Shown here: positions 1,858 through 24,804 of the stretch, in pieces
Layout: each line of letters begins with the position of its first letter
Position numbering within the stretch: position 1 is the stretch's first letter
Program-made: the position numbers and the translations under genes
Notes under the pieces: generated by a model
Told to the model about the DNA's origin: nothing
Databases searched by the model: none
The model's input: only the letters and a program-made list of their open reading frames with translations
NCBI GenBank assembly: GCA_022826185.1
Contig: JAJDVH010000258.1
Span: forward strand, 1-32,228
Direction of reading: 5' to 3'
From: Alphaproteobacteria bacterium
Lineage (GTDB): Bacteria > Pseudomonadota > Alphaproteobacteria > Bin95
Length of the DNA: 32,228 nucleotides

Positions 1858-2669
1858 AGGTGGACCTCGACAGGGTTGCGTCGGTCATCAGAGAGACCGC
1901 CGCAGCCGAGATGGTGCGGCAATTCACCGACCTCGACCCCGGCGATATCGGCGAGAAGTCGCCCAACGATTTCGTCACCGCCGTCGATCTGGCGATGGAG
2001 GCGCGTTTCGCCAGGCGGCTGCCGGACCTTCTGCCGGGCTCGGTGCTGTTGGGCGAGGAAGCGGCGGCGGCCGATCCCGGCGTTCTCGACCTGCTGGCGG
2101 GAGACCGTCCCGTCTGGGTCGTCGATCCGCTGGACGGGACGGCGAATTTCGCTTCCGGCTACCCGCTGTTCTGCACCATCGTCGCGCTCGTCACCGGCGG
2201 CGAGACGGTCGCCGGCTGGATCTACGACCCCTTCTCCGAGCGCATGGCGGCGGCAGAACGGGGCGGCGGCGCCTTCATGGGCGAACGCAGGCTCAGGGTC
2301 GTGCGGCCCGCCGACCTCCGCGACATGAACGGCGCGATCTACGGCTACAAGTTCCGCACGAGCGACGCCTACCGCGAAATCTGGGGGCGCGGGCGGGGCC
2401 GCCTCGGCCACTGCTTCAACACGCGCTGCGTCGGGCAGGAATATCTGGCGCGCCTCATCGGGCGGGCGCATTTCGGCCTCTACACCCGGCTCAATCCCTG
2501 GGACCATGCCGCGGGCTGCCTGCTGCACGAGGAAGCCGGCGGCGCGGCGGCCCTGCACGGCGGCCAGCCCTACCGGCCGCTGGGCCCGCGCCACGGCCTG
2601 CTGGTCGCGCCCGACTGGGACATCTGGCGCCGGATCGAGGCTGACCTCATCCGCCGCGTCCCGCTATGA
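1854..2669 (+). CDS. Inositol monophosphatase family protein
   Basis: This 271-aa Mg2+-dependent phosphatase of the IMPase/FBPase/CysQ superfamily is cytosolic. The three metal-site motifs are present: GEE (residues 67-69), DPLDGT (91-96) and WDHAAG (216-221). Its length matches the family norm. Translation probably begins at GTG 1854 inside a GTGA overlap with the DUF502 stop. No better start lies nearby, and the reading frame continues upstream without a good ribosome site. Superfamily members hydrolyse myo-inositol phosphate, PAP or histidinol phosphate, and these motifs do not decide between them. The sequence around YGYKFRT and the C-terminal half are typical of uncharacterised alphaproteobacterial paralogues. 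Confidence 0.87.
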   Translation: MKVDLDRVASVIRETAAAEMVRQFTDLDPGDIGEKSPNDFVTAVDLAMEARFARRLPDLLPGSVLLGEEAAAADPGVLDLLAGDRPVWVVDPLDGTANFASGYPLFCTIVALVTGGETVAGWIYDPFSERMAAAERGGGAFMGERRLRVVRPADLRDMNGAIYGYKFRTSDAYREIWGRGRGRLGHCFNTRCVGQEYLARLIGRAHFGLYTRLNPWDHAAGCLLHEEAGGAAALHGGQPYRPLGPRHGLLVAPDWDIWRRIEADLIRRVPL

Positions 2670-2703
2670 TGACGGCGGTTCCCGGAATGCGGATTTCACC
2701 ACC

Positions 2704-3579
2704 ATGAACACAGCTTCGCTTGCATTTGTCGGCCTGGGCGTCATGGGCTTCCCGATGGCGGGGCATCTCGCCGCCGCCGGCCACAAGGTCACCGTCTATA
2801 ACCGCACCGGCGAGAAAGCCGAGGCCTGGACCGCCGCCCACGGAGGCGGCACGGCCGCCACGCCCCGGGAGGCGGCGGCGGGCGCGGACATCGTGTTCTC
2901 CTGCGTCGGCAATGACGACGATGTGCGCAGCGTCGTTTACGGCGATGACGGCATCTTCGCCGGCATCCGGCCGGGCTCGGTCTATGTGGACCACACCACC
3001 GCTTCGGCCGACCTCGCCCGCGAGCTTTACGCGGAAGGCGGGGAGCGCGGCGTCGCCTGCATCGATGCGCCCGTCTCCGGCGGCCAGGCCGGCGCGGAGA
3101 ACGGCGTGCTCACCGTGATGTGCGGCGGCGACAGCGAGCCCTTCGAGCGCGCCCGGCCGGCCATGACCTGCTACGGGCGCGCGGTCACGCTGCTGGGCGC
3201 GCCCGGCAACGGGCAGCTCACCAAGATGGTGAACCAGATCGCGATCGCCGGCCTGCTGCAGGGGCTTTCGGAAGCGCTGAACATGGGCCTCAAGGCCGGG
3301 CTCGACATGCCGCTCGTGCTGGAGGTCATTTCCAAGGGCGCGGCGGGGTCCTGGCAGATGGACAATCGCGGCCAGACCATGATCGATGACAAGTTCGATT
3401 TCGGCTTCGCCGTGGACTGGATGCGCAAGGACCTCGCCATCTGCCTGGCCGAGGCGGAGCGCAACGGCGCGCGCCTGCCGATGACCGCCGCCATCGACCA
3501 GTTCTACAAGCATGTCCAGCAGGAGGGCGGCGGCCGCTGGGACACCTCCGCCCTCATCCACCTGTTGCGGAATACCTAG
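2704..3579 (+). CDS. NAD(P)-dependent oxidoreductase, beta-hydroxyacid dehydrogenase family
   Basis: A 291-aa enzyme of the 3-hydroxyisobutyrate / tartronate-semialdehyde / glyoxylate reductase family. The N-terminal Rossmann motif GLGVMG (residues 10-15) is followed by the substrate-site motif DAPVSGG (121-127) and the catalytic Lys in KMVNQ (K174). The C-terminal helical domain is complete, so the protein is full length. The family oxidises beta-hydroxyacids with NAD(P)+, or runs in reverse, in the cytosol. An Arg after the second strand (VYNRTG) suggests NADP(H) preference, which is an inference. The gene follows the IMPase gene by 34 bp in the same direction. Its 3' end faces tenA with only 4 bp between stops. 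The exact substrate is open. Confidence 0.88.
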   Translation: MNTASLAFVGLGVMGFPMAGHLAAAGHKVTVYNRTGEKAEAWTAAHGGGTAATPREAAAGADIVFSCVGNDDDVRSVVYGDDGIFAGIRPGSVYVDHTTASADLARELYAEGGERGVACIDAPVSGGQAGAENGVLTVMCGGDSEPFERARPAMTCYGRAVTLLGAPGNGQLTKMVNQIAIAGLLQGLSEALNMGLKAGLDMPLVLEVISKGAAGSWQMDNRGQTMIDDKFDFGFAVDWMRKDLAICLAEAERNGARLPMTAAIDQFYKHVQQEGGGRWDTSALIHLLRNT

Positions 3580-3583
3580 CCCG

Positions 3584-4237
3584 TCAGGCGTTCGGCGACA
3601 GGCCCATCTGCCAGAAGTCGATCTCCAGCCGGGTGGCGTCGCCGAAGATGCGTTCGAGGCCCGGCAGCCGCGCCGGGCCGCCGCGCCGCTCGAACAGCTC
3701 GTCGAGCCGGGCGATCGCCGCCGCCGCGGTCTCCTGATACTCACGGCCCGCATACATCTCGATCCAGGCGCCGTAGGGGTTGCCCCGCGCGGAGCCGGCG
3801 AGCGCGCTGCCGATCTCGGCATAGCCGACGATGCAGGGCGCGAGCGCGACATGCAGGTCCAGCAGGTCGCCGGCGAGCCCGCGCTCCAGCACATAGCGCG
3901 TATAGGCCATCGTCGCCGGGGCTTCCGGCAGGGCGGCCATGTCGGCCTCCTCCAGCCCCCATCCCTTGCAGAAGGCGACATGCAGGCGCATTTCCGTGTC
4001 GGCGATGGCGAGCGCGGTTTCCGCGCCGTGGCGGATGTCGGCGAGCGTATCGCCCTTGAACGCCGCCAGCGCGTAGGCGCGCGCGAAATGGACCAGGAAA
4101 AGGTAGTCCTGCTCCAGATAGTGGCGGAAACAGGCCTCGGGCAGGCTGCCGTCGCCGACGGCGCGCACGAAGGGATGGTCGATATAGGCCCGCCAGTCCG
4201 CGGCGGCGGCCTCTTTCAGCCGCTCGAACAGGCCCAT
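3584..4237 (-). CDS. tenA: TenA family protein (thiaminase II / aminopyrimidine aminohydrolase)
   Basis: The 217-aa protein matches TenA, which hydrolyses 4-amino-5-aminomethyl-2-methylpyrimidine to the hydroxymethyl form in thiamine salvage. Residues known from Bacillus subtilis TenA fall at matching positions: D44 in QDY, C135 in APCIVGY (the catalytic nucleophile), Y139, and E205 near the C-terminus. This is therefore the Cys-containing TenA_C type. The all-helical domain is complete and there is no signal peptide. The ATG at 4237 shares one base with the stop of the ferredoxin gene (TGATG), which implies translational coupling. No other thiamine gene is visible in the window, so the partnership with an iron-sulfur ferredoxin rather than a thi operon is unusual. 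Confidence 0.9.
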   Translation of the reverse strand: MGLFERLKEAAAADWRAYIDHPFVRAVGDGSLPEACFRHYLEQDYLFLVHFARAYALAAFKGDTLADIRHGAETALAIADTEMRLHVAFCKGWGLEEADMAALPEAPATMAYTRYVLERGLAGDLLDLHVALAPCIVGYAEIGSALAGSARGNPYGAWIEMYAGREYQETAAAAIARLDELFERRGGPARLPGLERIFGDATRLEIDFWQMGLSPNA

Positions 4238-4563
4238 CAGAGCAGCGACCGGGTTTCTTCGGGGAGCGTGACGCGGATCCCGTCCAGCTCGTCCGTCACC
4301 TCGATCTGGCAGCCGAGCCGGGAGGTCGGCGTCAGGCCGAAGGCGAGGTCGAGCATGTCCTCCTCGTCCTCGTCGGGCTCCGCCAGCCTCCCGTACCAGT
4401 CCTCATCGACGATCACATGGCAGGTCGAGCAGGCGAGCGAGCCCTCGCAGGCGCCCTCGATGTCGATATCGTATTTGCGCGAGATTTCCAGAATCGTCAG
4501 GCCCGCCGGAGGCTCGACGGTCTGCTCGCTTCCGTCCGGGCTGACAAAGGTGATCTTCGGCAT
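4237..4563 (-). CDS. [2Fe-2S] ferredoxin, ISC/adrenodoxin type
   Basis: A 108-aa electron-transfer protein with the cluster ligands C39, C45, C48 and C85 in the C-x5-C-x2-C-x36-C pattern of ISC-type (adrenodoxin-like) ferredoxins. These supply electrons to Fe-S cluster assembly or to P450 enzymes. The acidic stretch around residues 62-72 is the usual partner-docking surface. I chose the ATG at 4563, which has AGGA nine bases upstream. A TTG nine bases earlier would add three residues and places that same AGGA immediately against the start. The gene lies 27 bp downstream of a cysteine desulfurase gene and overlaps tenA by one base, so the three genes probably form one transcript. Confidence 0.92.
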
Positions 4564-4590
4564 CCGACCCAATCCTGTGAGCCGCGCCTT

Positions 4591-5625
4591 CTACCCCCTT
4601 CGCAACCTTGCCGCAAGGCGGTTCCAGGCCTCCGCAAAGGCGTCGATATCGGCTGCCGCCAAGCCCGGTCCGAGGCTGACGCGGATGGCCTCGCCCGCCG
4701 CCGTTTCATTCACGCCCATCGCCAGCAGGACATGCGACGCGCCCACCTTCCCGGACGAGCAGGCGGCGCCCGCGCTCACCGCGAATCCTTCGAGGTCGAA
4801 GGCCATCACCTGGGTCTCGCCCGAGACGCCGGGCATGCCGATGCAGCTCGTGTTCCCGAGGCGCGGCCCGTCGCGGCCGTAGAACACCGCGCCTTCGAGG
4901 CGGGCTTCCATGCGGTCGCGGAGCGCCTTGACGTCGGCCAGCGCGCATGCCGCCGCGCCGAAGCCGGCAATGCCGACGACATTCTCCGTGCCGCCGCGCC
5001 GGCGGCGCTCCTGCGCCCCCCGGATCGGGCCGTCGAGCGCGCGTTCACGTCTCAGCACCAGCGCGCCGACGCCCATCGGGCCGCCCAGCTTGTGCGCCGA
5101 GAGCGCCAGCGAATCGGCGTCTATCGCGGCAAGGTCGAGGCGTCCGGCCGCCTGGACGGCGTCGCAATGCCAGAGGCCGCCCGTCTCCCGCACCCGGCGC
5201 CCGATCTCCGCCAGCGGGTGGACCGCTCCGGTTTCGTTGTTGGCGGCCATGAGCGCGACGGCCGCGCCCGGCGGAATCGCGTCCGGGCAGACGCGCCCGC
5301 CGCCGTCCACCGCCAGGCGGGGGCCGTGCGCATGGTCCAGCACGGAGACATGCTCGCTCGCGCCCGCCAGCCATTCGCGCCCCGCCAGCGCGAGCGCGTT
5401 CGCTTCCGTGCCGCCGGAGGTGAACACGACCTGCTCCGGGGCCGCGCCGGCAAAGGCGGCAACCCGCGCCCGCGCGTCCTCGACGAGGCGGCGCGCGGCG
5501 CGCCCCTCGCCATGCACGGAGGAGGGATTGCCGAGCATGGCCATCGCAGCCGTCATGGCGTCCCGCGCGGCCGGAGCCAGCGGCGCGGTGGCGTTCCAAT
5601 CCATGTAAATGCGGCGTTTTGCCAT
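4591..5625 (-). CDS. Cysteine desulfurase (NifS/IscS-like, class V aminotransferase)
   Basis: The 344-aa PLP enzyme would convert cysteine to alanine and pass the sulfane sulfur to Fe-S scaffolds or tRNA thiolation. The Schiff-base lysine is K179 in SAHKLGGP, and the persulfide-forming cysteine is C289 in GAACSSG, with the short SSGK loop following. The N-terminal DWNATAP and SGGTEAN motifs are typical. It is about 60 residues shorter than E. coli IscS and closer in size to compact NifS-like group I enzymes. The ATG at 5625 has AGAGG eight bases upstream. It is divergent from the hydrolase at 5744 with a 118-bp shared upstream region, and it leads the ferredoxin-tenA operon. Confidence 0.92.
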   Translation of the reverse strand: MAKRRIYMDWNATAPLAPAARDAMTAAMAMLGNPSSVHGEGRAARRLVEDARARVAAFAGAAPEQVVFTSGGTEANALALAGREWLAGASEHVSVLDHAHGPRLAVDGGGRVCPDAIPPGAAVALMAANNETGAVHPLAEIGRRVRETGGLWHCDAVQAAGRLDLAAIDADSLALSAHKLGGPMGVGALVLRRERALDGPIRGAQERRRRGGTENVVGIAGFGAAACALADVKALRDRMEARLEGAVFYGRDGPRLGNTSCIGMPGVSGETQVMAFDLEGFAVSAGAACSSGKVGASHVLLAMGVNETAAGEAIRVSLGPGLAAADIDAFAEAWNRLAARLRRG

Positions 5626-5743
5626 GATGCGGCCTCTTGACGGCCCTCGCCGCCCGAACCAGTTAGGTTCCTGCTACCCTCGGAAAATTCGCCTTGCGGC
5701 GGCAGGCTCGCCGCCCGGAACGAAGGAGCGGGATTCCAGGCCC

Positions 5744-6391
5744 ATGCCCGACGTTATCGTGAACGGTCCCGAGGGCCGGCTGGAAGCGCGCTACCATCAT
5801 GTCGACGACCAGGCGGCGCCCATCGCGCTGATGCTGCATCCGCATCCGCAGCATGGCGGCACGATGCACAACAAGGTCGTCTACAACCTGTTTCACTGCT
5901 TCGTCCGGCGCGGGTTCTCGGTCATGCGCTTCAACTTCCGCGGCGTCGGGCGCTCGCAGGGCGAATACGGGCGCGGGGAAGGCGAGCTCGCCGATGCGGC
6001 GGCCATTCTCGACCACATGCAAAGCCTCAGGAAGGACCCCGTCAAGGTCTGGATCGCGGGCTTTTCCTTCGGCGCCTGGATCGGCATGCAATTGCTGATG
6101 CGCCGGCCGGAAATCTCGGGCTTCATCTCCATCGCCCCGCCGGCCAACATGTACGACTTCTCCTTCCTGGCGCCCTGCCCGTCCTCGGGCCTGATCGTCA
6201 ACGGCACGCGGGACGAGATCGTGACGACGGACTCGGTGGAGAAGCTGGTCGAGAAGCTGCGCACCCAGCGCGGCATCGTCATCGACCACAAGGTCATTCC
6301 CGGCGCCAACCACCTGTTCACGCGCCATCTCGAACAGCTGAACAACGCGGTCGAGGCCTATCTGGACCGCCGCCTCGCCACCGGCGGCTAA
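5744..6391 (+). CDS. Alpha/beta hydrolase, copy 1 (cytosolic)
   Basis: This 215-aa serine hydrolase has the small dienelactone-hydrolase-like alpha/beta fold of widely conserved proteobacterial proteins of unknown substrate. The nucleophile elbow is GFSFG (S108), the likely acid is D157 in NGTRDEIV, and the histidine is H190 in GANH. An N-terminal LHPHPQHGG stretch forms the oxyanion region. No signal peptide is present: the in-frame sequence upstream of ATG 5744 has no leader character, though it resembles the linker of copy 2. A near-identical second copy lies at 16811-17461. The gene is divergent from the cysteine desulfurase, and its stop is 8 bp before a palindromic repeat element. The physiological substrate is unknown. 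Confidence 0.88.
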   Translation: MPDVIVNGPEGRLEARYHHVDDQAAPIALMLHPHPQHGGTMHNKVVYNLFHCFVRRGFSVMRFNFRGVGRSQGEYGRGEGELADAAAILDHMQSLRKDPVKVWIAGFSFGAWIGMQLLMRRPEISGFISIAPPANMYDFSFLAPCPSSGLIVNGTRDEIVTTDSVEKLVEKLRTQRGIVIDHKVIPGANHLFTRHLEQLNNAVEAYLDRRLATGG

Positions 6392-6399
6392 TAGACGGC

Positions 6400-6620
6400 T
6401 AGAGCACGATCCATTCCTACTGAAACGACGGCCTCTGTGGGGCGGCGTTCGGCATTGACCTAATTCGTCGCCCCGGACCCCGATCCGGGGCCCAGCCTCG
6501 ACCGGTCCAGCCTGGCGCGCAGGCCGGGAGATGGCCCCCGGATCTCCGCTCCGCTCCGTCCGGGGTGACGGTTGAGGCTATAGGGGCGAGGCCGTTTCAA
6601 CCGGAGCGGATCGTGCACTA
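6400..6620. mobile_element. Palindromic MITE-like repeat element
   Basis: The whole interval between the hydrolase and the polyprenyl synthase is an imperfect palindrome of about 221 bp. Its left end reads TAGAGCACGATCC, then TGAAACGACGGCCTC (6400-6434). The reverse complement of its right end reads TAGTGCACGATCC, then TGAAACGGCCTC (6620-6588). The centre holds a GC-rich palindrome (6466-6498) that recurs inverted at 9277-9309. It carries no ORF or transposase, so it would be non-autonomous. The outermost TAG of the right end is the stop codon of the polyprenyl synthase on the minus strand. It may also act as a bidirectional terminator between the convergent genes, which is an inference. Confidence 0.65.
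6466..6498 (+). repeat. 33-bp GC-rich palindromic repeat, copy A
   Basis: Around the core CCCCGGACCCCGATCCGGGG, a 33-bp stretch is identical to the reverse complement of 9277-9309. It is nested inside the larger element at 6400-6620. Repeats of this kind are dispersed in many alphaproteobacterial genomes. Confidence 0.8.
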
Positions 6621-7625
6621 ATACACGCGGTCGACGCAGAAATCGGCGATATCGGCCAGCACGGCCCGCACCGGGCTGTCCCCGAAGGACCGCAGCGCCC
6701 GCTTGGCGTCTTCGGCGTGCGAGCGCGCCCGGTCCAGCGTCTCCGCCAGCGTGTCATGGCGCCGCAACAGGGCGAGCGCCTTGCGGAAATCACCGGCCTC
6801 GCGCCCGTCCTGGCCCAGGACCCGCTGCCAGAAGGCGCGCTCCTCCCCGTTGCCCCGTTCGAAGGCCAGGATGACCGGGAGCGTGACCTTGCCCTCGGCG
6901 AAATCGTCGCCCACGGTCTTGCCGAGGTCCGCCTGCCGGGCCGAATAGTCGAGAACGTCGTCGGCAAGCTGGAAGGCGATGCCGAGGTTCATGCCGTAGG
7001 TCTCCAGCGCGTCGGCCTCGGCGCGCGGCCGGTCCGCAATGACGGCGCCGATGCGGCAGGCGGCGGCGAACAGCGCGGCGGTCTTGCCCTCGACGACCTT
7101 CAGATAGTCGGCGATCCCGGTCTCGGGCCGGCTGACGGTCGCAAGCTGGCGCACCTCGCCCTCGGCGATCGTCGCGGAGGCATTGGCGAGGATGCCCAGC
7201 ACCTCCAGCGACCCGACATCGACCATGAGCTGGAACGAGCGGCTGAAGAGAAAATCCCCGACCAGCACGCTCGCCTGGTTTCCCCACACGGCGTTGGCCG
7301 TCTCCGTGCCGCGCCGCAGCATGCTCTCGTCCACGACATCGTCGTGCAGCAGGGTGGCCGTGTGGATGAACTCGACGCAGGCCGCCAGGTCGACATGGCG
7401 CCGCCCCTCATAGCCGCAGAGGCGCGCGGACGCGAGCGTGAGCATGGGGCGCAGCCGCTTGCCCCCCGATGCGACGATATGGCCGGCCAGTTGCGGGATC
7501 AGCGCGACCTCGTTCTGCATCCGCTCCAGGATCAGGGCGTTGACGCGCGCCATGTCCGCCCCGACAAGCGCCTGCAACGCGGCCAGCGGCTCGGCAGCCG
7601 GCGGGGATGTTGCCGCTAGTGTCAC
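6618..7625 (-). CDS. ispB: Polyprenyl diphosphate synthase (octaprenyl/decaprenyl type)
   Basis: A 335-aa trans-prenyltransferase that elongates farnesyl diphosphate with isopentenyl diphosphate to make the long ubiquinone side chain. Both aspartate-rich motifs are intact: DDVVD at 95-99 and DDVLD at 222-226, with GGKRLRP (54-60) upstream. Length and composition match IspB-type synthases. The chain length (C40 or C50) cannot be read reliably from sequence. I chose GTG 7625, which has GAAGG 11 bases upstream; the upstream extension of the frame runs into the divergent DUF2007 gene. The stop codon TAG (6620-6618) is formed by the end of the palindromic element at 6400-6620. The gene order (synthase divergent from DUF2007 and a methyltransferase) is, from memory, common in Rhodospirillales. 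Confidence 0.92.
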   Translation of the reverse strand: MTLAATSPPAAEPLAALQALVGADMARVNALILERMQNEVALIPQLAGHIVASGGKRLRPMLTLASARLCGYEGRRHVDLAACVEFIHTATLLHDDVVDESMLRRGTETANAVWGNQASVLVGDFLFSRSFQLMVDVGSLEVLGILANASATIAEGEVRQLATVSRPETGIADYLKVVEGKTAALFAAACRIGAVIADRPRAEADALETYGMNLGIAFQLADDVLDYSARQADLGKTVGDDFAEGKVTLPVILAFERGNGEERAFWQRVLGQDGREAGDFRKALALLRRHDTLAETLDRARSHAEDAKRALRSFGDSPVRAVLADIADFCVDRVY

Positions 7626-9093: not shown

Positions 9094-9454
9094 CACGCGA
9101 TTCGACCTGAATGAATCGACCGGCAGTCGTCAGCCGGCCACCGACGTCGCAGTCGGTTTGTTGCCCCGGCACCCCTTTCGTCACCCCGGCCCTCGAGCCG
9201 GGGTCCATCCATGGCTCGCGTAGCCGCCGCAGCCGGTGGGGAGCAGGCTCAACCGCTGAAACTGCTGCCAGAACCAAGGCTGGGCCCCGGATCGGGGTCC
9301 GGGGCGACGGTTGGGGAGTATGCAACGCCAAGCCAACAGTCGCAGATGTGTGAATCCGACAGGGCTCAGGGCCGGGGTGACGGTTGCGCCCCGGTTCGCA
9401 AGGCAACGCCGTCGGTTTCCGCGCCAGCGTCGCATGAGACGGGGGAGCGGCCCG
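9094..9454. repeat. Intergenic region filled with dispersed GC-rich palindromes
   Basis: No gene is supported in these 361 bases. The content in order is: a short hairpin with CGATTC and GAATCG arms (9098-9118); a palindrome CCCCGGccctcgagCCGGGG near 9184; the 33-bp inverted copy of the 6466-6498 repeat (9277-9309); and a further GGGCCGGGGTGACGG fragment near 9375. These pieces follow the pattern of alphaproteobacterial interspersed palindromic repeats. A ribosome site GGGGGAG at 9441-9447 belongs to the next gene. Open frames through this region encode low-complexity Arg-rich peptides and are not real. Confidence 0.6.
9277..9309 (-). repeat. 33-bp GC-rich palindromic repeat, copy B (inverted)
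   Basis: This is an exact reverse-complement match to 6466-6498, reading from AGGCTGGGCCCCGG to TCCGGGGCGACG. The two copies are about 2.8 kb apart, in opposite orientation. Confidence 0.8.
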
Positions 9455-10423
9455 GTGAGTGAAGCGGGGTCGCCCGCCCCCGTCTGGGCGTTGACGACGG
9501 GCGAGGCCGGGGCCGCCGGGCAGGCCGAGGGGCTGGCGGCGGCTGTCGGACGGCCCTACGAGGTCAGGACCGTCCGGTTGCGCCGCCCCTGGTCCTGGCT
9601 GCCGGCGCACCGGCAGGCGCCGGGCCTGCTGCAATACGGACTGGATGAACGCCTCGGCCCGCCCTGGCCGGAACTGCTGATAACCTGCGGCCGGAAGAGC
9701 GCGTCGGTCTCCGTCGCCGTCCGGCGCGCGGCGGGCGGACGGTGCTTCACCGTCCATATCCAGAATCCGCGCGTCCCCCTCCGCCATTTCGACCTGGTCG
9801 TCCCGCCGCGCCATGACGGCGTCTCCGGGCCCAATGTCGTGGCGACGCGGGTGGCGCTCCACCGCCTGACGCCGGAGGCGCTCGCCGCCGCCGGCGAGAC
9901 ATGGCGAAGCCGGTTCGCGGATTTGAACGTCGCCGTGCTGCTGGGCGGGCGAAGCCGGTCCCACCGTTTCACGCCGGAAACCCTGGAGGTGCTGGCGGAC
10001 GGCCTCGCAAGGCTCGAAGGGCCGGTCGCGGTCACCGCCTCACGGCGCACGGAGCCGGCCGTCATTGCCGAACTCAAGGCCCGGTTGCCGGAAGCCTGGT
10101 TCTGGGACGGAACCGGCTGCAACCCCTATCCCGGTATGCTGGCGCTCGCCCGGCATATCGTGGTCACGGAAGACTCGGTCTCTATGACCAGCGAGGCGGT
10201 ATCGACCGGCAAGCCCGTCTATGCAGCGCGCATGGCGGGCGGCAACCCGCGGCTGGCGCGCTTCCAGACCGCTCTGCGGGAGGAAGGAATCCTCCGCCCG
10301 TTCGAGGGCCGGCTGGCGGAATGGCAGTACGAACCCGTCAACGAGGTGCCGCGCGTCGCCGCCGAATTGCTCCGGCGCATGGAGGCCAGGAGTTTGCAGG
10401 CGGAGCGTTTGCGGGGAGAATAG
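9455..10423 (+). CDS. Mitochondrial fission ELM1-like family protein (DUF1022)
   Basis: The 322-aa protein matches the bacterial ELM1-like family, named after a plant mitochondrial fission factor. The bacterial members look like GT-B-fold glycosyltransferase relatives. Supporting segments are the N-terminal WALTTGEAG, the PPWPELLITCGRKSA block, VHIQNPR, the LLGGRSRSHRF stretch, and the C-terminal VTEDSVSMTSEA motif, which resembles a nucleotide-sugar binding site. I chose GTG 9455 because GGGGGAG (9441-9447) sits seven bases upstream. The upstream frame runs through repeats. The function in bacteria is not established; envelope glycan or lipid work is a reasonable guess from the fold. TauD follows after 26 bp. 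Confidence 0.82.
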   Translation: MSEAGSPAPVWALTTGEAGAAGQAEGLAAAVGRPYEVRTVRLRRPWSWLPAHRQAPGLLQYGLDERLGPPWPELLITCGRKSASVSVAVRRAAGGRCFTVHIQNPRVPLRHFDLVVPPRHDGVSGPNVVATRVALHRLTPEALAAAGETWRSRFADLNVAVLLGGRSRSHRFTPETLEVLADGLARLEGPVAVTASRRTEPAVIAELKARLPEAWFWDGTGCNPYPGMLALARHIVVTEDSVSMTSEAVSTGKPVYAARMAGGNPRLARFQTALREEGILRPFEGRLAEWQYEPVNEVPRVAAELLRRMEARSLQAERLRGE

Positions 10424-10449
10424 CGGCGGTTCGTCTCGGGAGGCTTGCG

Positions 10450-11310
10450 ATGAGTGCCGACAACCCCGGTCTGGAAATCCGTCCGAGCGACGCGCCGGTC
10501 GGGGCCGAAGTGTTCGGCGCGGACCTCTCGGCTCCGCTGTCCGATGAAGTCTTCGCGGCGTGCGAAGCGGCCTTCGACCGCTACAGCGTGCTGTGTTTCC
10601 GGGGCCAGTCGCTGACGCCGGAAGCGCTGCTCGCCTTCTCCCGCAGGCTGGGCGAGATCAAGGTCAACGCCTTCGACCAGCATGCGCTGGAAGGGTTCCC
10701 GGAGGTGCTCAAGGTCTCGAACCTGCAGGACGAGGGAGGACGCGCGCTCGGCTATGCCGATGCCGGCAGCCACTGGCACACCGACATGTCCTACACCGCC
10801 GAACCGCCGCGCCGGACCTTGCTCTATGCGCTTGAGGTCCCTCATGACGATTCGGGCGAGCCCCTCGGCCCCACCCTGTTCGCCAGCGCCGCGGCGGCCT
10901 ATGACGCGCTCGACGAGGAAACCCGCGAGCGCATCGAGACCCTGCAGGCGGTCCACCGCTTCGCCGCCAAGGAGCGCGGCGTGAAAAAGCCGGTTGCGGT
11001 CACCCGCGAACAGATCGAGAAGAACCCGGACGCCCGCCATCCGGTCGCGCGGCCGCACCCGAAGACCGGCCGCAAGGCGCTCTATGTGCGCAAGGGCGAG
11101 TGCATCGGCATAGACGGCATGGACGACGCCGAGGCGCTTCCGCTGATCGACCGGCTCTCCGACCTCATCGTCGAAGACCGCTTCATCTACCGCCACCGCT
11201 GGGCCGTCGGCGACCTGCTGATGTGGGACAACCCCGCCGTCCAGCATGTCGCCATCCGCGACTATGAATGGCCCCAGCGCCGCGCCATGTGGCGCACGAC
11301 GGTCAGGTAA
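10450..11310 (+). CDS. TauD/TfdA family Fe(II)/2-oxoglutarate dioxygenase
   Basis: This 286-aa non-heme iron oxygenase has the facial triad H110-x-D112 (in HWHTDMSY) and H266 (in NPAVQHVA), with the 2-oxoglutarate-binding arginine at R278 or R282 near the C-terminus. The block HPVARPHPKTGRKALY is highly typical of TauD/TfdA. The family hydroxylates substrates such as taurine or aryloxyacetates, or catalyses related oxidations, coupled to 2-oxoglutarate decarboxylation. No sulfonate transport genes are nearby, so taurine should not be assumed. GGGAGG precedes ATG 10450 by six bases. The TAA stop directly abuts the left end of the palindromic element at 11310. Confidence 0.9.
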   Translation: MSADNPGLEIRPSDAPVGAEVFGADLSAPLSDEVFAACEAAFDRYSVLCFRGQSLTPEALLAFSRRLGEIKVNAFDQHALEGFPEVLKVSNLQDEGGRALGYADAGSHWHTDMSYTAEPPRRTLLYALEVPHDDSGEPLGPTLFASAAAAYDALDEETRERIETLQAVHRFAAKERGVKKPVAVTREQIEKNPDARHPVARPHPKTGRKALYVRKGECIGIDGMDDAEALPLIDRLSDLIVEDRFIYRHRWAVGDLLMWDNPAVQHVAIRDYEWPQRRAMWRTTVR

Positions 11311-11505
11311 TACCAGCGGCATCGACTTGGGACTCATGTCTTCTTCTCGTCATGCCCGGACTTGTTCCGGGCATCTCCCTCAACCGTTTCCGTCCGGCCA
11401 AGCGACCGCATGGATGCCCGGAACAAGTCCGGGCATGACGGAAGGGGGAGATCGGGCGGCGGGCGTCGAATCTGTCATGGGTTCCGGTCAACGACCGCGG
11501 GTATA
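11310..11505. mobile_element. Palindromic MITE-like repeat element, second family
   Basis: The ends are inverted: left ATACCAGCGGC (from 11310), then GGGACTCATG; right, on the other strand, ATACCCGCGG, then GGAACCCATGAC. Subterminal arms repeat CATGCCCGGAC/TTGTTCCGGGCAT near 11351-11374 and again near 11411-11437. There is no transposase. A half copy lies at 24581. Small open frames here give peptides containing RHARTCSGHP and MPGTSPGMT, which recur as false genes in many alphaproteobacteria. The right end overlaps the last nine codons and stop of the minus-strand ATPase gene. Confidence 0.72.
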
Positions 11506-14180
11506 ACAGGGATCGGATCGGCCCGGCGGCAGTCCGCCAGCCGGATTGTCTTTGCGCCCAGCGTCTCGTAGCGGGCTTCGTGGCAGGTCAGGACCACGAT
11601 CTGGAGCGAGGCCGCCGCTTTCCTGAGCGCGAGTTCCATACGGCGGAAGCGCTCGTCGTCGCTGTTGACCAGCGGGTCGTCCAGGATCAGCGCGACCGGC
11701 CTGCCCTTCTCGCGCAACAGATCGGCCAGCGCCAGGCGGGTCAGCACGGCGACCTGCTCGCGCGCGCCGATGCTGAGCGTGGCGAAGGGTTCCTCGACCC
11801 CGTCCCGCCGAAGCGAGACGATTTCCAGGTCGTCCTCGCTCAGCCGCAACTCCGTCTCGGGGAAGAGCATGCGCAGATAAGGCTGCAAGCGCTCCCGCAC
11901 CGGCCCGAGGAAGGTCTCCTTCGCCTCCCGCTCCGCTTCGCGCAACGTCTCCAGCAACAGCTTCCACGCCTTGGCGTCCGCCTCGATCCGCGCCAGTTCG
12001 CCGCGGGCGATGTCGAGTTCGCCTCTCTTTTGCCCGAGTTCCTCCGCGAGGCCCCGCTGGCCGAGGGTGTGCAGTTCGACGGCGAGGTCGCGCTCGGCGC
12101 GCGCGCTGTCCCCGATCCGGGCTTGCAGCCGGTCGAGAGCCTCTTCCGCGCGCTGGCGTTCGATCCGCAACGCTTCCGGATTCATGGCGTCCCGCTCCGC
12201 GAGCACCGCTTCGTGCTCCGAGCGGCGTTTCGCCGCCTCGTTCGCCGCCGCCGCGGCCTGCTCGGCCAACGCCTCATCCGACGCGGCGCGGCGCGCTTCT
12301 TCCAGCGCGGCCCGGCGCCCTTCCGCCGCTTCCGCCCTCTGCCTGTGCTCCGCGTCCGCCTCTATGCGCCCTTCCCGCAGCCGATCATGCAGTTTGCGCG
12401 CCTCGTCCCGCCCCGATACCGCCTGCCCGGCCGCGCGTTCCGCCTCGTCCCGCTCCGCTAGCGCCGTCCGCTCGGCGGCCTGCGCGGTTTCGACATCGGG
12501 CGGTTCGCCCGCATCCGGCCCCGCCAGCGCGGACAGGCGGGCCCGCCGCTCCCGCACCGAGTCCCGAAGGGTATCGAGTCCTTCCGGCGCAAGGCCACGG
12601 AGTTCGCCCTTCAGGGTTTCCATTTCCGCCTGCGAGGCCTGTCTGGCGCGCAGGGCCGCCTCCGCGTCCGCCAGGTCTGTCCGGCCCAGGCGGCGCAGAT
12701 CCTCGCCCATCCGGTCTTCCAGGTCGGACAGGTCGGCCCGCAGCCGCGCCAGGTCCCGGCCGCCGGGAACGACCTCCAGCGCGCCGAAATCCTGAAGATG
12801 GAAAGTGCTGCGTTCGGTGACACGCAGGGCCTCGCCGGTATCGACGGGCTGCCCGTCCCGCGACACGCTCCGTCCGCCTTCCGGGGAAAAGGCGAGTGTA
12901 GCCGCGGCCGCCTCAAGCGCAGCTTCCAGCCTTATCTGCTCCTCGCGCAGCTTCTGCAGCCCGGAGACAATGTCCTCGTTCACCGGATTGGCGGCGAGCG
13001 CCTGCTCCCCGTGCTCGATCCGCTCCTCCAGCGCTTCGGCCTGCTTCAGCCGCTCGTCGAGCGTCTGCAAGCCTGCCGCGATCTCCGCCCGTTCGAGGGT
13101 TCGGCGCGCCGCCTCCCAGTCTGCGTTCGCCTCTCTCCGCCGGCTGTTGCAGGAGGCAAGAGCTTCCTCCGCTTCCGCCAGCCTCCGCCCGGCGTCGAGA
13201 TAGTCGGGCTCCAGTTCCTTCAGCGCCGCCTCCGCCTCGCCGGTCTGCCGGACAGTCGCCTCGACCTCTTCGACCAGCGCCAGCCGCATCTTCCGGGCGC
13301 CCTCGGCCGCCTCTCCGGCGCTTCGGGCCTGCTCCATTCGCGCCTCTGCGGTTTCGAGCCGGCCCTCCACCGCTTCAAGCCTGCGAAGAGCGGCCTCGGC
13401 CCCCTCGGCCTCCTCCTGCGCCCTCGCGAGCGCGCCGTCTCGCTCATAGCGCGCAAGGCTTTCCCGCAGCTTCCCGAGCCGCTCCACCTGCTCGTCATAG
13501 CCGCGGAGATCGGCTTCCAGCGCCTTGCACGCCTCCTCAAGCGCCTCCGCGTCCCTGCGGGGACCGCTCAACGCATCGCGTTCGCGGCCGGTCCGGGTGT
13601 AGTAGTCGCCGGCGCGCGCCTCCACGAGGTCCAGCAGCCGGCGGCCGCGCTCCCCGCCGAGCACCTGCCCGACTTCGCCTTCTATGGCTTGCCTCAGGAC
13701 CGCCTGGCTGTCCTCGTTCATGCCGAGCGGCTGGAAGGCGCGCCCCTGCTCCACCCAGAGCAGCCCGGCAAGGCCCCTGTGCTCCTCGCCGGCGGCGCCG
13801 CGCCCCGGCCGGGAGAAGCCGAGCAACTCCCGCAACCGGTCTTCCGCGGCCTCTCCCTCCCACCGGCCGCCGCCGCCTTCGACCAGCGCCGCCGGACCCC
13901 GGCCGAACGCCTTTTCCAGGCGGTAATCGGTCCCTGCGAGTTCGAAACCGACCTCGATCCACGGGCGCACGCCCCGCGCGCCGAACGGCATCATCTGCTC
14001 GACGCCCTGCCCGGTCAGGTTGTGCCGGTCGAAGAATGCGCTCTGGAGCGCCCTCAGCAGGGTGGACTTGCCCTCCTCATTGTCGCCGACGATGACGGTG
14101 ATGCCGGGGTCCAGGCCCTCGACCGCCACGCCCCGGGCGAGCTTGCGGAAGTTGCGAACGGCGAACCGGTCTATCCGCAT
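11475..14180 (-). CDS. SbcC/Rad50/YhaN-like AAA ATPase with long coiled coil
   Basis: A 901-aa SMC-family ATPase, the likely partner of the nuclease encoded just upstream in DNA double-strand-end processing. It has an N-terminal Walker A GDNEEGKST (32-40), long Ala/Glu/Arg-rich coiled-coil arms, a short beta-rich hinge-like insert in the middle (around SVSRDGQPVDTGE), a C-terminal signature LSIGAREQ and Walker B LILDD (831-835). No CxxC zinc hook is visible at the apex, unlike Rad50/SbcC, so it is closer to Bacillus YhaN. I chose ATG 14180, seven bases after GGGGGAG and four bases after the nuclease stop. The last residues (IPAVVDRNP) and the TGA are encoded by the palindromic element at 11310-11505. 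Confidence 0.85.
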   Translation of the reverse strand: MRIDRFAVRNFRKLARGVAVEGLDPGITVIVGDNEEGKSTLLRALQSAFFDRHNLTGQGVEQMMPFGARGVRPWIEVGFELAGTDYRLEKAFGRGPAALVEGGGGRWEGEAAEDRLRELLGFSRPGRGAAGEEHRGLAGLLWVEQGRAFQPLGMNEDSQAVLRQAIEGEVGQVLGGERGRRLLDLVEARAGDYYTRTGRERDALSGPRRDAEALEEACKALEADLRGYDEQVERLGKLRESLARYERDGALARAQEEAEGAEAALRRLEAVEGRLETAEARMEQARSAGEAAEGARKMRLALVEEVEATVRQTGEAEAALKELEPDYLDAGRRLAEAEEALASCNSRRREANADWEAARRTLERAEIAAGLQTLDERLKQAEALEERIEHGEQALAANPVNEDIVSGLQKLREEQIRLEAALEAAAATLAFSPEGGRSVSRDGQPVDTGEALRVTERSTFHLQDFGALEVVPGGRDLARLRADLSDLEDRMGEDLRRLGRTDLADAEAALRARQASQAEMETLKGELRGLAPEGLDTLRDSVRERRARLSALAGPDAGEPPDVETAQAAERTALAERDEAERAAGQAVSGRDEARKLHDRLREGRIEADAEHRQRAEAAEGRRAALEEARRAASDEALAEQAAAAANEAAKRRSEHEAVLAERDAMNPEALRIERQRAEEALDRLQARIGDSARAERDLAVELHTLGQRGLAEELGQKRGELDIARGELARIEADAKAWKLLLETLREAEREAKETFLGPVRERLQPYLRMLFPETELRLSEDDLEIVSLRRDGVEEPFATLSIGAREQVAVLTRLALADLLREKGRPVALILDDPLVNSDDERFRRMELALRKAAASLQIVVLTCHEARYETLGAKTIRLADCRRADPIPVIPAVVDRNP

Positions 14181-14184
14181 CGCC

Positions 14185-15315
14185 CTACTCCCCCGTTCCG
14201 ACATGGGTTTCGTAGAGCCGCACCAGCGCCATGGCGGCAACGGCCCGGTCGGGGTCGGCCTCGTCGCCCGCCCGGCTGCGCAGGCGCTCCACGGCCGTGC
14301 GCACGAACCCGCCCCTGTCTATGCGGTCCAGGTCGTCGTCGCTGGGCTCGTCCAGCAAGCCGTCTTCGCGGACATCCAGGTGGTGGAGCACGGCGTCCCA
14401 ATGTTCGAGGCGTTCGCGGAGCCTCGCGCGGGTCGCCAGGTCGATGGCTCCGGAGAGCGTCAACCGGAGAAGGCAGGTCCCCGGCTCCGGAGCCAGTCCG
14501 GCAATCTCCCGGTCGAGCGCGTCGATGTCGTCGGCATTGCGGACCGCCGCGGCCTTGGACCGCCAGGCAAAGCGGCCCGTCGGGACTTTCTCCACCTCGG
14601 GCGGCGCGCCCGGCTCGGAGATCGTCACGACCAGCGCATTTCCGGGGTCGGCAGAAGAGAAGCTGTCGGTTTCCGGCGTGCCGGAATACCAGGTGCGGTC
14701 ATTGACCCTCAGCGTCCCGTGCCAGTCTCCCAGCGCCAGGTAATCCAGCAGCGCGGCCTCGGCGCGGCCGGCGGCCACGGGGTTCGGAGCGCCGGAGGAG
14801 TCGCGAAGAAACTCGGGCACCGACCCGTGCGCCAGACCGATTCGCATGGCGCCCTCCGGCGTCTCCGCGCGGTCGAACCATGCCGTGAGATCTTCGATTT
14901 CGTGGCGGCGCCGCAGCACGGCCGGCAACACGGCGGCCCGGCCGTCGGCGAGCAACAGCGGCGTTTCCGGTTCGAGAGCCAGATGCACATTGGCGGGCGG
15001 CTCCCGGCGCCGCAGGCGCGTCCAGACCGAATCGGCGAGCGCCGCATCGTGATTGCCCGGGATGAACACCCAGTCGCCGGGAAACTGCTTCAGCGCCTCC
15101 AGCATCCGGATCAGCGTGCGCTCGGCCACGGCATTGGCGTCGAAGACATCGCCGGCCACCAGCACCGCGTCCGCGCCCCGCTCCGCCGCCAGCCTGCCCA
15201 CCGCCTTCACCGTCTCGATGCGGCTGTCCCGCAGCGCCGCGCCGGCATCGCCCGGGATGTTGGCGAAGCGCTTGCCGAGTTGCCAGTCGGCCGTGTGCAC
15301 GAATCGGAAGGTCAT
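14185..15315 (-). CDS. SbcD/Mre11/YhaO-like metallophosphoesterase DNA repair nuclease
   Basis: This 376-aa calcineurin-like phosphoesterase should bind two Mn2+ ions and cut DNA ends together with the downstream ATPase. Motifs in order are HTADWQLG (7-14), GDVFD (55-59), GNHD (87-90), AHGS with H163, and GDWHG (196-200). Motif I reads D-x-Q where classical Mre11/SbcD has D-x-H, and the last motif reads GDWHG where Mre11 has GHxH. I recall DWQ-type motifs in YhaO-like relatives, so this marks a subfamily rather than a dead enzyme. A C-terminal capping region follows residue 260. It is the first gene of a two-gene operon, with a 4-bp gap to the ATPase. Confidence 0.87.
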   Translation of the reverse strand: MTFRFVHTADWQLGKRFANIPGDAGAALRDSRIETVKAVGRLAAERGADAVLVAGDVFDANAVAERTLIRMLEALKQFPGDWVFIPGNHDAALADSVWTRLRRREPPANVHLALEPETPLLLADGRAAVLPAVLRRRHEIEDLTAWFDRAETPEGAMRIGLAHGSVPEFLRDSSGAPNPVAAGRAEAALLDYLALGDWHGTLRVNDRTWYSGTPETDSFSSADPGNALVVTISEPGAPPEVEKVPTGRFAWRSKAAAVRNADDIDALDREIAGLAPEPGTCLLRLTLSGAIDLATRARLRERLEHWDAVLHHLDVREDGLLDEPSDDDLDRIDRGGFVRTAVERLRSRAGDEADPDRAVAAMALVRLYETHVGTGE

Positions 15316-16230: not shown

Positions 16231-16692
16231 ATGAATGCACTCCCCGCAAGAAAGCTGGCAACGCTCGCCGCCGCCGCGCTGGCGCTGCTGGCGCCCGCCT
16301 TCGCGTCTGCCGCCGACCTGACCGTCCGTATCGAGGGCGTGCGCTCGGCCGACGGCGATATCCGCGTCGCCCTCCACCGCCGCGCCGACGGCGTGGACTT
16401 CCCCGATTCGGCCGGAATCGTGAAGGCGGCCATGCGCCCGGCAGCGAAGGCCGGCGACCTGGTGTTCGCCGGCCTGGCGCCCGGCGACTACGCCATCGCC
16501 GCCTTCCACGACGAGGACCGCGACGGCGACCTCGACACCAACCTGCTCGGCATCCCGACCGAGGGCTACGGCTTCTCCAACGAAGCGCGCGGCACTTTCG
16601 GGCCGCCCGACTTCGATGCCGCCGCCTTCACGATAAGGGCGGGCGAGGAGCGCCCTGCCGTCACGGTCAAGCTCGGCTACCCGGAGTCCTGA
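16231..16692 (+). CDS. DUF2141 domain-containing exported protein
   Basis: A 153-aa secreted protein. Residues 1-27 form a Sec signal peptide: a Lys/Arg n-region, an Ala/Leu core, and a cleavage site after AFASA. The mature domain is a DUF2141 beta-sandwich with the conserved segments GDIRVALH, GLAPGDYAIAAFHDEDRDGDLDTN and PTEGYGFSN. The acidic DEDRDGDLDTN loop looks metal- or calcium-binding. The family has no established function, although members are, from memory, sometimes found near carotenoid genes. GGAG lies nine bases before ATG 16231. The stop lies inside the 70-bp repeat shared with the carotenoid oxygenase leader, four bases before the start of the next gene. Confidence 0.87.
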   Translation: MNALPARKLATLAAAALALLAPAFASAADLTVRIEGVRSADGDIRVALHRRADGVDFPDSAGIVKAAMRPAAKAGDLVFAGLAPGDYAIAAFHDEDRDGDLDTNLLGIPTEGYGFSNEARGTFGPPDFDAAAFTIRAGEERPAVTVKLGYPES

Positions 16693-16750
16693 AGCCATGA
16701 AACCGCAGATTTCCCGCAGAGACGCGCTCCGCGCCGCCGGAAGCCTGCCC
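16681..16750 (+). repeat. 70-bp direct repeat, copy A (Tat leader of hydrolase copy 2)
   Basis: These bases are identical to 17571-17640. They cover the last codons and stop of the DUF2141 gene, the ribosome site GGAG, and the first 18 codons of a Tat signal peptide. Confidence 0.95.
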
Positions 16751-17461
16751 TTGCTGCTTGCCGCCGAGGCGGCAGGGGCGGCCGGACCGAAGGAACGGGA
16801 CTCCACGCCCATGCCCGACGTTTTCGTGAACGGCCCCGAGGGCCGGCTCGAAGCGCGCTACCATCATGTCGACGACGCCGCAGCCCCGATCGCGCTGATA
16901 CTGCACCCCCATCCGCAGCATGGCGGCACGATGCACAACAAGGTCGTCTACAACCTGTTTCACTGCTTCGTCCGGCGCGGGTTCTCGGTCATGCGCTTCA
17001 ACTTCCGCGGCGTCGGGCGCTCGCAGGGCGAATACGGGCGCGGAGAAGGCGAGCTCGCCGATGCGGCGGCCATTCTCGACCACATGCAAAGCCTCAGGAA
17101 GGACCCCGTCAAGGTCTGGATCGCGGGCTTTTCCTTCGGCGCCTGGATCGGCATGCAATTGCTGATGCGCCCGCCCGGGATTTCCGGCTTCATCTTCGTC
17201 GCTCCGCCGGCGAACATGTACGACTTCACTTTCCTCGCGCCCTGCCCGTCGTCCGGCCTGATCGTCAACGGCACGCGGGACGAGATCGTGACGACGGACT
17301 CGGTGGAGAAGCTGGTCGAGAAGCTGCGCACCCAGTGCGGCATCGTCATCGACCACAAGGTCATTCCCGGCGCCAACCATTTCTTCACCCGGCATCTCGA
17401 ACAGCTGAACGGTGCGGTCGAAGCCTATCTGCACAGGCGCCTCGCAGCCGACAAGCGCTGA
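16697..17461 (+). CDS. Alpha/beta hydrolase, copy 2, fused to a Tat signal peptide
   Basis: This frame of 254 aa joins a twin-arginine leader (ISRRDALRAAGSLPLLLAA, then an Ala-rich c-region, residues 1-31) to a paralogue of the hydrolase at 5744, which begins at residue 39 (an ATG at 16811). The catalytic Ser (GFSFG), Asp (TRDEIV) and His (GANH) are retained. The leader is identical to that of the downstream carotenoid oxygenase over 70 bp. If translated from 16697 the enzyme would be exported folded to the periplasm. Starting at 16811 would keep it in the cytosol, but no good ribosome site is seen there. GGAG lies ten bases before ATG 16697. It follows DUF2141 by 4 bp and probably shares its transcript. 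Confidence 0.83.
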   Translation: MKPQISRRDALRAAGSLPLLLAAEAAGAAGPKERDSTPMPDVFVNGPEGRLEARYHHVDDAAAPIALILHPHPQHGGTMHNKVVYNLFHCFVRRGFSVMRFNFRGVGRSQGEYGRGEGELADAAAILDHMQSLRKDPVKVWIAGFSFGAWIGMQLLMRPPGISGFIFVAPPANMYDFTFLAPCPSSGLIVNGTRDEIVTTDSVEKLVEKLRTQCGIVIDHKVIPGANHFFTRHLEQLNGAVEAYLHRRLAADKR

Positions 17462-17532: not shown

Positions 17533-17576
17533 CCGGCGCGGCGCATCCGCCCCCCCCCCCACACTGCTAACCGGAG
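17533..17576 (+). repeat. DUF2141 leader repeat, copy B, with 11-C tract
   Basis: A diverged copy of 16183-16221. A homopolymer of 11 C residues (17550-17560) replaces the mixed CGC sequence of copy A. It then joins, at CCGGAG, to what is the 3' end of the DUF2141 gene in copy A (TCCTGA). This junction looks like a deletion scar. Confidence 0.75.
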
Positions 17577-17640
17577 TCCTGAAGCCATGAAACCGCAGAT
17601 TTCCCGCAGAGACGCGCTCCGCGCCGCCGGAAGCCTGCCC
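17571..17640 (+). repeat. 70-bp direct repeat, copy B (Tat leader of carotenoid oxygenase)
   Basis: Identical to 16681-16750, at a distance of 890 bp. It contains the ribosome site and the first 18 codons of the carotenoid oxygenase. Confidence 0.95.
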
Positions 17641-19071
17641 CTGCTGCTCGCCGCAGGGGCTGTGAGGGCGTCCGGCGCTGCCGGCGAAGACGAGGCGCTC
17701 GCCTTCGCCACCGCACAGGCGGAGCGGTTGTCCGCGCCGTTGCAAACCCTGCGAGGCAGGCTCCCCGCCGGACTCGTCGGCACCCTCTGGCGGAACGGCC
17801 CGGCCGAGCATGACCGCTTCGGTCATCGCTACGGACACTGGTTCGACGGCGACGGCATGATCCAGGCCTTCCGGTTCGACGGCGCGGGCGTCACCCACCG
17901 GGCGCGTATCCTGGACACGCCCAAACGCCGCCGCGAAGCGCAAGCCGGGCGGCGCATGCTGCCCGCTTTCGGCTCGATGCCGCCCGACCCGGCGGAAACC
18001 CGGCGCCCCGACGACATGAACGCCGCCAACACCTCCATGGTCGTCCATGCCGGACGCCATATGGCGCTCTGGGAAGGCGGGTCGGCGCTGGAATTCGATC
18101 CCGGGACGCTGGACGCCGGCGGCTTCGTGGAATGGCGCAAGGACATCGCCGGCGCGCCCTTCTCCGCCCATCCGAAGGTCGAGGCCGACGGCACGATGTG
18201 GAATATCGGCTACCTGCCGGTGCCGCGCCCGATGCTGATCTTCTACCGCATCGACCCGGCGGGGCGGCTCGCGAAGGTGAATGTGTTGCCGATGGCGCCG
18301 CTCGGCCTCACCCACGATTTCGTGGTGACGGAGCGGCGGCTGGTCGTGCTGCTGACCCCCTTCGTGCTGGACCGGGACAGGTTCGCCTCCGGCCACACGC
18401 CCATCCTCGACGCCCATGTCTGGCGGCCGGAGCTGGGCGTGCGCGCGCTGGTCGTCGACAAGGACAGCCTGGAGGTCGAGCGCCGCCACGAGCTGCCGCC
18501 CGGCTTCCATTTCCATCACGGCAATGGCTGGGAGGAGGCGGACGGCACGATCCGGCTCGATCTCTGCCAGGCACCGGACCCGGCCTTCGTCACCCGCGAG
18601 TTCCGCGATGTCATGCGGGGCGACACCCGCTTCCGCTCGCAGCACCCGGTCTATCGGCGGGCCGTCCTCCGCCCGGACGGGAGCGCCGAGTACGAGCATG
18701 GCGGGACGGTCGCCGCCGACTTCCCGCGCATCGACCCCCGCCGCCTCGGCCGGCGCCACGACATGACCTTCGCGCTGGCGGGCGTGGACGAGCCCATTGG
18801 CTGGCCGCTCCGGCGCGTTTCGCGGTTCGCGCCCGGCGAGGCGGACGGTTGGACCTGGCCCCGGCACCGGATACCGGAGGAGCATGTATTCGTGCCCCGC
18901 GGCCCCGGCGAGGGCGAAGGCTGGCTGCTCGGCCCGTTCCTGGACCTCCGGCGGCGCGCCTCGGGCCTCGCCGTCTTCGAGGCAGAGCGCCTCGCCGACG
19001 GCCCGGTCTGGGAAGGCATTCTCCCCTACCCCCTGCCGCTCGCCCTGCACGGCACCTTCGCCCCGGCGTGA
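17587..19071 (+). CDS. Carotenoid oxygenase family protein with Tat signal
   Basis: A 494-aa member of the RPE65/carotenoid cleavage dioxygenase family, seven-bladed beta-propellers that bind Fe(II) through four histidines and split carotenoid or stilbenoid double bonds. Candidate ligands are H195 (SAHPKVEADG), H243 (LTHDFVV), H310 (FHHGNGWE) and H488 (LHGTF). The family hallmark GHWFDGDGMIQAF is at 83-95. Residues 1-33 form a Tat signal peptide with ISRRDALR, so export of the folded iron enzyme is expected. Its leader duplicates that of the hydrolase upstream. No carotenoid biosynthesis gene is in the window, so the substrate is open. It is probably coexpressed with DUF2141. Confidence 0.9.
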   Translation: MKPQISRRDALRAAGSLPLLLAAGAVRASGAAGEDEALAFATAQAERLSAPLQTLRGRLPAGLVGTLWRNGPAEHDRFGHRYGHWFDGDGMIQAFRFDGAGVTHRARILDTPKRRREAQAGRRMLPAFGSMPPDPAETRRPDDMNAANTSMVVHAGRHMALWEGGSALEFDPGTLDAGGFVEWRKDIAGAPFSAHPKVEADGTMWNIGYLPVPRPMLIFYRIDPAGRLAKVNVLPMAPLGLTHDFVVTERRLVVLLTPFVLDRDRFASGHTPILDAHVWRPELGVRALVVDKDSLEVERRHELPPGFHFHHGNGWEEADGTIRLDLCQAPDPAFVTREFRDVMRGDTRFRSQHPVYRRAVLRPDGSAEYEHGGTVAADFPRIDPRRLGRRHDMTFALAGVDEPIGWPLRRVSRFAPGEADGWTWPRHRIPEEHVFVPRGPGEGEGWLLGPFLDLRRRASGLAVFEAERLADGPVWEGILPYPLPLALHGTFAPA

Positions 19072-24580: not shown

Positions 24581-24687
24581 ATACCAGCGGCCGTTGACAG
24601 GAACCCATGACGGTTTCGACGCCCACTACCCCGATCGCTCCTCGTCCACAGGCTCTTCCGTCATGCCCGGAACAAGTCCACGGCTGT
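24581..24687 (+). repeat. Half copy of the palindromic element found at 11310-11505
   Basis: It starts with ATACCAGCGGCCGTTGAC and continues through GGAACCCATGACGG, TTCGACGCCC and CCGTCATGCCCGGAAC. This follows the reverse complement of 11505-11410 in order with scattered changes. The second arm is absent. It begins 7 bp after the glycosyltransferase stop. Confidence 0.7.
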
Positions 24688-24804
24688 CCGGTTCAGCCAT
24701 TGGGCGAAGCCGGGCGATACGGGTGGTTAACTCGCCTGTATAGGTGAACACGAAGCATAAATCCGGCCCGGATGTCCGGAAAGTCGAATTGAGGAGTGTT
24801 GACG

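Follow-up and report, generated by a model that had tools for sequence, protein, structure and literature searches.

Elements of the IS630 family duplicate the dinucleotide TA, not TNA, and in IS870 and similar IS630 elements it is the target that completes the stop codon of the element's gene. The element described here is related in character to both: its ends resemble IS630 ends, its proposed mover would belong to that family, and, as in IS870, the target triplet is a stop codon. It differs from the family in its 3-bp TNA duplication, and from IS870, where the host supplies the stop of the element's gene, in that here the host gene retains its own stop.

Bacterial MITEs such as Correia/NEMIS, RUP and MITEAba12 are described in the available parts of three papers (PMC2229807, PMC6382973, PMC10969869) as short, multi-copy sequences without a transposase gene, which carry terminal inverted repeats, duplicate their target and share their ends with IS elements. 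Measured against these partial descriptions, the repeat in our window (the whole stretch of DNA analysed, 32,228 nucleotides) agrees in size class, copies, inverted repeats, duplication and IS-shared ends, but its TNA duplication coincides with stop codons and about half of its duplication-flanked copies lie on one. Rickettsia palindromic elements (RPE), repeats of ~100-150 bp, add residues to host proteins (excerpts of PMC2229807 and PMC10969869), and here, too, a palindromic repeat contributes host-protein residues. Unlike RPE, which insert in frame inside ORFs, the present element brings the ORF to an end with a few added residues, and for the majority of docked genes there is no gain at all; with the empty sites rebuilt, none of the 39 copies in the genome of the window (G000) lies within a called gene. 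Searches of a library of open-licence papers brought up nothing recognisable as docking of a MITE on stop codons, nor did passages of PMC2229807, PMC7031236, PMC3119063, PMC6382973 and PMC10969869.

Our reading, with a probability of roughly 0.8, is that a MITE moved by an IS630-family transposase entered the TAA stop codon of a TauD gene, that the target duplication restored this stop while an opposing ATPase gene received a new tail, and that survival of such insertions explains the enrichment of the family at stop codons.

A MITE in the stop codon of a TauD gene

The features of the locus, together with a second copy of the element, are listed by their positions in the window:

9901-11310, plus strand: TauD-family dioxygenase ORF (gene caller's start at 10450), C-terminus unaltered by the insertion
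11303-11305, minus strand: probable former stop codon TGA of the ATPase, now severed from the ORF by the element (deduced from L058, which lacks the element, and from the site as rebuilt without it)
11308-11310, plus strand: left target-duplication copy TAA, the stop codon of the TauD gene (empty site in L058)
11311-11503, no strand assigned: MITE of subfamily A, 193 bp (copies of 193-194 bp elsewhere in G000 and in G003, 93-98% identical)
11311-11338, plus strand: L end, 28 bp, of the TACCA..CGG..GACTCATG type, resembling the left end of IS630-type elements
11348-11440, no strand assigned: core palindrome with arms 11348-11375 and 11413-11440 (28 nt, 100% complementary)
11475-11504, minus strand: final nine codons and stop of the ATPase (IPAVVDRNP), supplied by the element except for one base from the target duplication
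11476-11503, minus strand: R end, 28 bp, of the TACC..GCGG..GGAACCCATG type, resembling the right end of IS630-type elements
11504-11506, plus strand: right target-duplication copy TAA
11475-14240, minus strand: SbcC-like ATPase ORF, 921 aa, start uncertain (PF13476 above cut-off)
24582-24700, plus strand: second, one-ended copy, comprising an R end and a decayed interior (extent judged by eye), flank not TNA

The MITE at 11311-11503 contains no transposase gene and is bracketed by an exact 3-bp TAA duplication. An earlier note on this DNA had placed its left end directly beside the TauD stop; the adjacency is correct, but the relation is closer, the stop codon itself being one copy of the duplication. 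The flanks could also be read as a 1-bp duplication within a TNA target, with element ends ATACC, which leaves the outcome for the stop codon unchanged. An Rfam search of the window gave no match, and a search of six plasmid records returned matches to the core palindrome only and no whole element.

On the minus strand, positions 11504 to 11475 read ATA CCC GCG GTC GTT GAC CGG AAC CCA TGA in the frame of the ATPase, whose ORF (adjoined by a metallophosphoesterase gene at 14185-15315) ends directly with IPAVVDRNP and a stop, just as the note had described. The homology that it saw between this arm and the copy at 24581 is likewise found: 11454-11504 is 84% complementary to 24581-24631 over 51 nt.

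An orthologous locus without the element, L058 (JAJEAZ010000010.1; the same contig as G003:C732), is 96% identical in DNA and aligns contiguously in two abutting blocks (window 9801-11309 = 1693-3201; window 11504-13686 = 3200-5382). The TauD protein ends ...WRTTVR in both, with the stop codon TAA in the window and TAG in L058, while in L058 the last residues of the ATPase are ...RADPSPAT and its stop codon, TGA, falls in an overlap with the end of TauD; relative to it, the ATPase of the window has lost one residue and gained nine. Four of six orthologous loci are informative about the ATPase end (that of L062 is unreadable and L063 comprises the N-terminus only), the other three ending in DCRTGG (L059 and L061) and DCQIED (L060). 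All four stop before IPAVVDRNP, which bears out the proposal that repeat DNA extended the ATPase C-terminus; no orthologue was encountered that has these residues without the repeat, and the two compared as DNA lack the element. That IPAVVDRNP should instead be the ancestral C-terminus, the repeat being derived from or converged on coding sequence, has next to no probability: we found no support for it, the four orthologue ends refute it, the arm belongs to a repeat whose ends have ~100 or more matches in the genome, and an unrelated protein at another copy (L026) ends in the same nine residues. The tail lies beyond the region conserved among ATPase orthologues; probably the protein tolerates it and draws no benefit from it.

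The course of events was probably as follows. The TauD and ATPase genes would formerly have been convergent and overlapped by 8 bp. A transposase of the IS630 family (IS630/Tc1/mariner) would have moved the MITE into the TAA stop of the TauD gene, duplicating the target triplet TNA. Since any TNA triplet, read on one or the other strand, spells a stop (TAA or TGA), an insertion at such a codon rewrites it and leaves the protein on that side unchanged. Because of the convergent overlap, the insertion would at the same time have separated the ATPase ORF from its own TGA, the break falling immediately ahead of that codon; the reading frame would then continue for 29 nt into the R end and stop there, its last residue swapped for IPAVVDRNP.

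The repeat family and its flanks

Searching the genome of the window with the element gave 96 matches, many of them a single copy found on both strands. A pattern of the R end produced 139 hits (at most two mismatches) against 30 for the reversed control, and one of the L end 92 hits (at most three mismatches) against none for the control. The first 99 loci include 48 two-ended copies, whose flanking triplets are identical in 37 cases, differ in one base in eight and in more in three. TNA accounts for 91 of the 96 flanking triplets of two-ended copies, far more than chance would give (2.2%, the share of such positions over 396 kb of this genome), and it also flanks 61 of 70 unpaired ends; in the symmetrised target of 43 copies there is no strong preference beyond TNA, with some bias towards G/C in the adjacent positions. 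The 43 distinct duplication-flanked copies measure 143-339 bp, with main classes of 193 and 222 bp, and an alignment of 49 copies (39 from G000, ten from G003) displays one set of 28-bp ends around differing interiors, mainly those of subfamily A (~193 bp) and subfamily B (~222 bp). The assignment as a MITE is based on these properties: the family is short, multi-copy and without a transposase gene, it has imperfect 28-bp terminal inverted repeats of R and L type, and its target duplication is confirmed by empty sites (the window and L026). The one-ended copy at 24582-24700 starts a few bases past the stop of a GT25 gene. In 20 loci selected for their similarity from G004, G005 and G007, the core was matched and no duplication-flanked copy was found by our test; another locus of G004, L269, shows both ends.

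A second repeat of the window, at 6398-6623 (the 6400-6620 element of the earlier note), has TAGnGCACGATCC ends and nine strong matches in the genome, and the stop codon TAG of a minus-strand polyprenyl synthetase gene lies inside its right end. It had been considered unrelated to the MITE, which is not wholly the case: the core of subfamily B (17 of 19 B copies) is the core palindrome of this repeat (window 6471). A stand-alone exact inverted copy of the same core (33 nt) is located at 9277-9309, implying that cores travel alone or with different ends.

Other repeated stretches in the window are 5712-6011 and 16779-17078, 94% identical over 300 nt and situated inside alpha/beta-hydrolase genes (5609-6391 and 16751-17461), a likeness that is due to recent duplication or gene conversion, and a direct repeat of 110 nt (16676-16785 and 17566-17675; 91% identical, 890 nt apart).

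Docking on stop codons

Genes were called with a home-made codon-model caller, seeded with seven Pfam-supported genes and trained on G000; an earlier caller, trained on the longest ORFs, was dropped as it called the antisense strand of TauD. In G000, the duplication is positioned exactly at the stop of a called gene, in the right sense, in 20 of the 39 duplication-flanked copies, and with 20 further loci included 21 of 43 distinct copies are docked in this manner. Pfam matches exist for 20 of the 21 docked genes, for example IF-1, ribonucleotide reductase, LptD and a penicillin-binding protein. In the 396 kb of background, picked away from known copies, stops make up 13.75% of the TNA triplets outside coding interiors, or 22.8% if those in the 60 bp ahead of a gene start are disregarded; the binomial p for 21 of 43 is 3.9e-8 under the former null (0.1375) and 1.6e-4 under the latter (0.228). 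In convergent gaps 12 of 17 are docked (15% expected, p 4e-7). The enrichment is weaker under a local null, in which every insertion may move only inside the gap where it lies: 13.2 of 37 would then be docked, and 19 are (p 0.001). G003 alone, with three of ten docked, is not significant; one of these ten touches a gene start. The stop is faced by the L end in 11 cases and by the R end in nine, and the docked fractions of subfamilies A (7/19) and B (11/19) do not differ significantly (p 0.33). The earlier suggestion that repeats habitually dock at gene 3' ends in this genome thus holds for the MITE family but not for the repeat at 6398-6623, for which three two-ended loci revealed no general docking.

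States before and after insertion were also compared at other sites. In L026, a second and independent case, the element is inserted in the TAA stop of an IF-1 gene (PF01176), and the opposing gene, which has a weak HAD-like match below the cut-off, ends ...SLGLIPAVVDRNP and a stop, the tail being IPAVVDRNP. In all seven congeneric genomes the IF-1 gene at this site ends ...RITFRHK and the opposing gene TCGGT or TCGGR; G003 has the exact empty site, identical and with a single TAA. A third site, L105, is the TGA stop of a transglycosylase/transpeptidase gene; it is filled in G003 as well, whereas G005 and G002 align across it without a break and have no element there (alignments of G007, G004 and G001 are interrupted and were not counted). 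At L099 a further gene reads into the element, via the L end, whereas L032, a weak gene call running off the contig, was excluded from the read-in cases. The three frames entered from the R end yield IPAVVDRNP and a stop, a five-residue tail and a frame open through the element, respectively; the three closed read-in cases all terminate inside the element.

IS630-type elements as candidate mover

IS630-type transposase genes were found with ends of this type in four congeneric genomes, the family assignment coming from NCBIfam NF033545 and PF13358. In G003 (L286), G006 (L287), G002 (L292) and G001 (L291) the gene runs to its stop within a TACC end, beside which lie the triplets TCA, TAA, TAA and TTA, respectively, and in all four the transposase stop lies inside the terminal repeat, exactly 16 nt from its outer end. 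G001 has four left-type ends flanked by TCA, TCA, TAG and TCA, one of which is adjoined by an IS630-type N-terminus. NF033545, applied to two of these four genes, gives 149 and 146 bits for two C-terminal parts (cut-off 100); the N-terminal part scores 48, which is below the cut-off. The MITE ends match like IS ends in 16-22 of 28 positions (R) and 18-19 of 28 (L), against ~7 for shuffles, but identity to the opposite type is almost as high (16-20 of 28), so that the end-by-end pairing of R with R and L with L is no more than suggestive. TNA flanks seven of eight IS ends picked blind to their flank, no copy with both ends being among them. None of the genomes searched yielded an autonomous element that is intact and has both ends, and G000 yielded none with these ends. 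Judged by matching ends and flanks, an IS630 transposase is the likely mover.

The TNA duplication had at one stage prompted us to consider an IS5-family mover. G000 has one PF01609 match and G007 none, none of 30 scanned PF01609 loci has a matching end pair, and the candidate was dropped after the IS630 genes with such ends had been found. At L155/L262 (G001:C207) an IS5-type transposase gene is situated directly inside an IS630-type left end, resembling an element-in-element insertion.

Survival, targeting or function

The excess at stop codons could arise if the transposase, or its cofactors, sought out stop codons, docking then being a targeting property which protects the host. The 21 docked copies, the 12 of 17 in convergent gaps and the excess that remains even under the local null are what would be expected from such targeting, which we nevertheless regard as unlikely. 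G003 has only three docked copies of ten, and the symmetrised target offers no strong preference past TNA apart from its G/C bias. G004 contains a near-identical IS630-type burst, with a left end that recurs dozens of times, for the most part at ~110 nt from the end of a contig; the first 100 bp are identical in 18 of 20 such left ends (L301-L320), which represent a recent burst collapsed in the assembly. None of these 20, taken from hits that are TNA-flanked by the search pattern, is docked, where half the docking rate of the MITE would predict ~5, though the gene caller, trained on G000, may have lower power in G004. Among the copies of G000, those on stops show greater divergence from the most similar other copy (Mann-Whitney p 0.034); an age split at a nearest-copy identity of 0.90 is not significant (Fisher p 0.16). 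Nearest-copy divergence dates insertions poorly: for the copy in L026 it amounts to 8% (92% identity), yet the adjoining gene is protein-identical in G003. Survival is favoured over targeting because none of the burst ends is docked and docked copies are more diverged; the best reading is that the element targets TNA, that the duplication restores the stop and that insertions at other places are lost, and we infer that the enrichment is caused by the survival of harmless insertions. It would be a doubtful extension to suppose that this branch of IS630 recognises gene ends or terminating ribosomes besides TNA, so that stop codons would be a genuine refuge where MITEs colonise the ends of essential genes and, in tail-to-tail overlaps, add one and the same peptide again and again to unrelated proteins.

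Less probable still, the element might be kept at gene ends since its hairpin acts as a bidirectional terminator or 3'-end stabiliser. On both strands the palindrome of the MITE is predicted to form a long hairpin of high stability (z -8.4 and -9.8), which makes an effect on mRNA 3' ends possible, and the excess in convergent gaps would suit such a role. However, the same sites are empty in close relatives, the stop is faced by either end, and both subfamilies dock in spite of their different cores. In our assessment the element is mobile DNA and, at the sites it occupies, does little harm for the most part.

Implications

If the target triplet of a transposon is a stop codon on either strand, insertion at a gene end is silent, a rule which can be tested in any genome and which would explain how small transposons can persist in gene-dense DNA. 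In overlapping genes, the same process is a repeatable route to new C-terminal residues, with the states before and after insertion available in close relatives. For annotators it carries a warning: where unrelated proteins share one and the same tail, a transposon may have supplied it.
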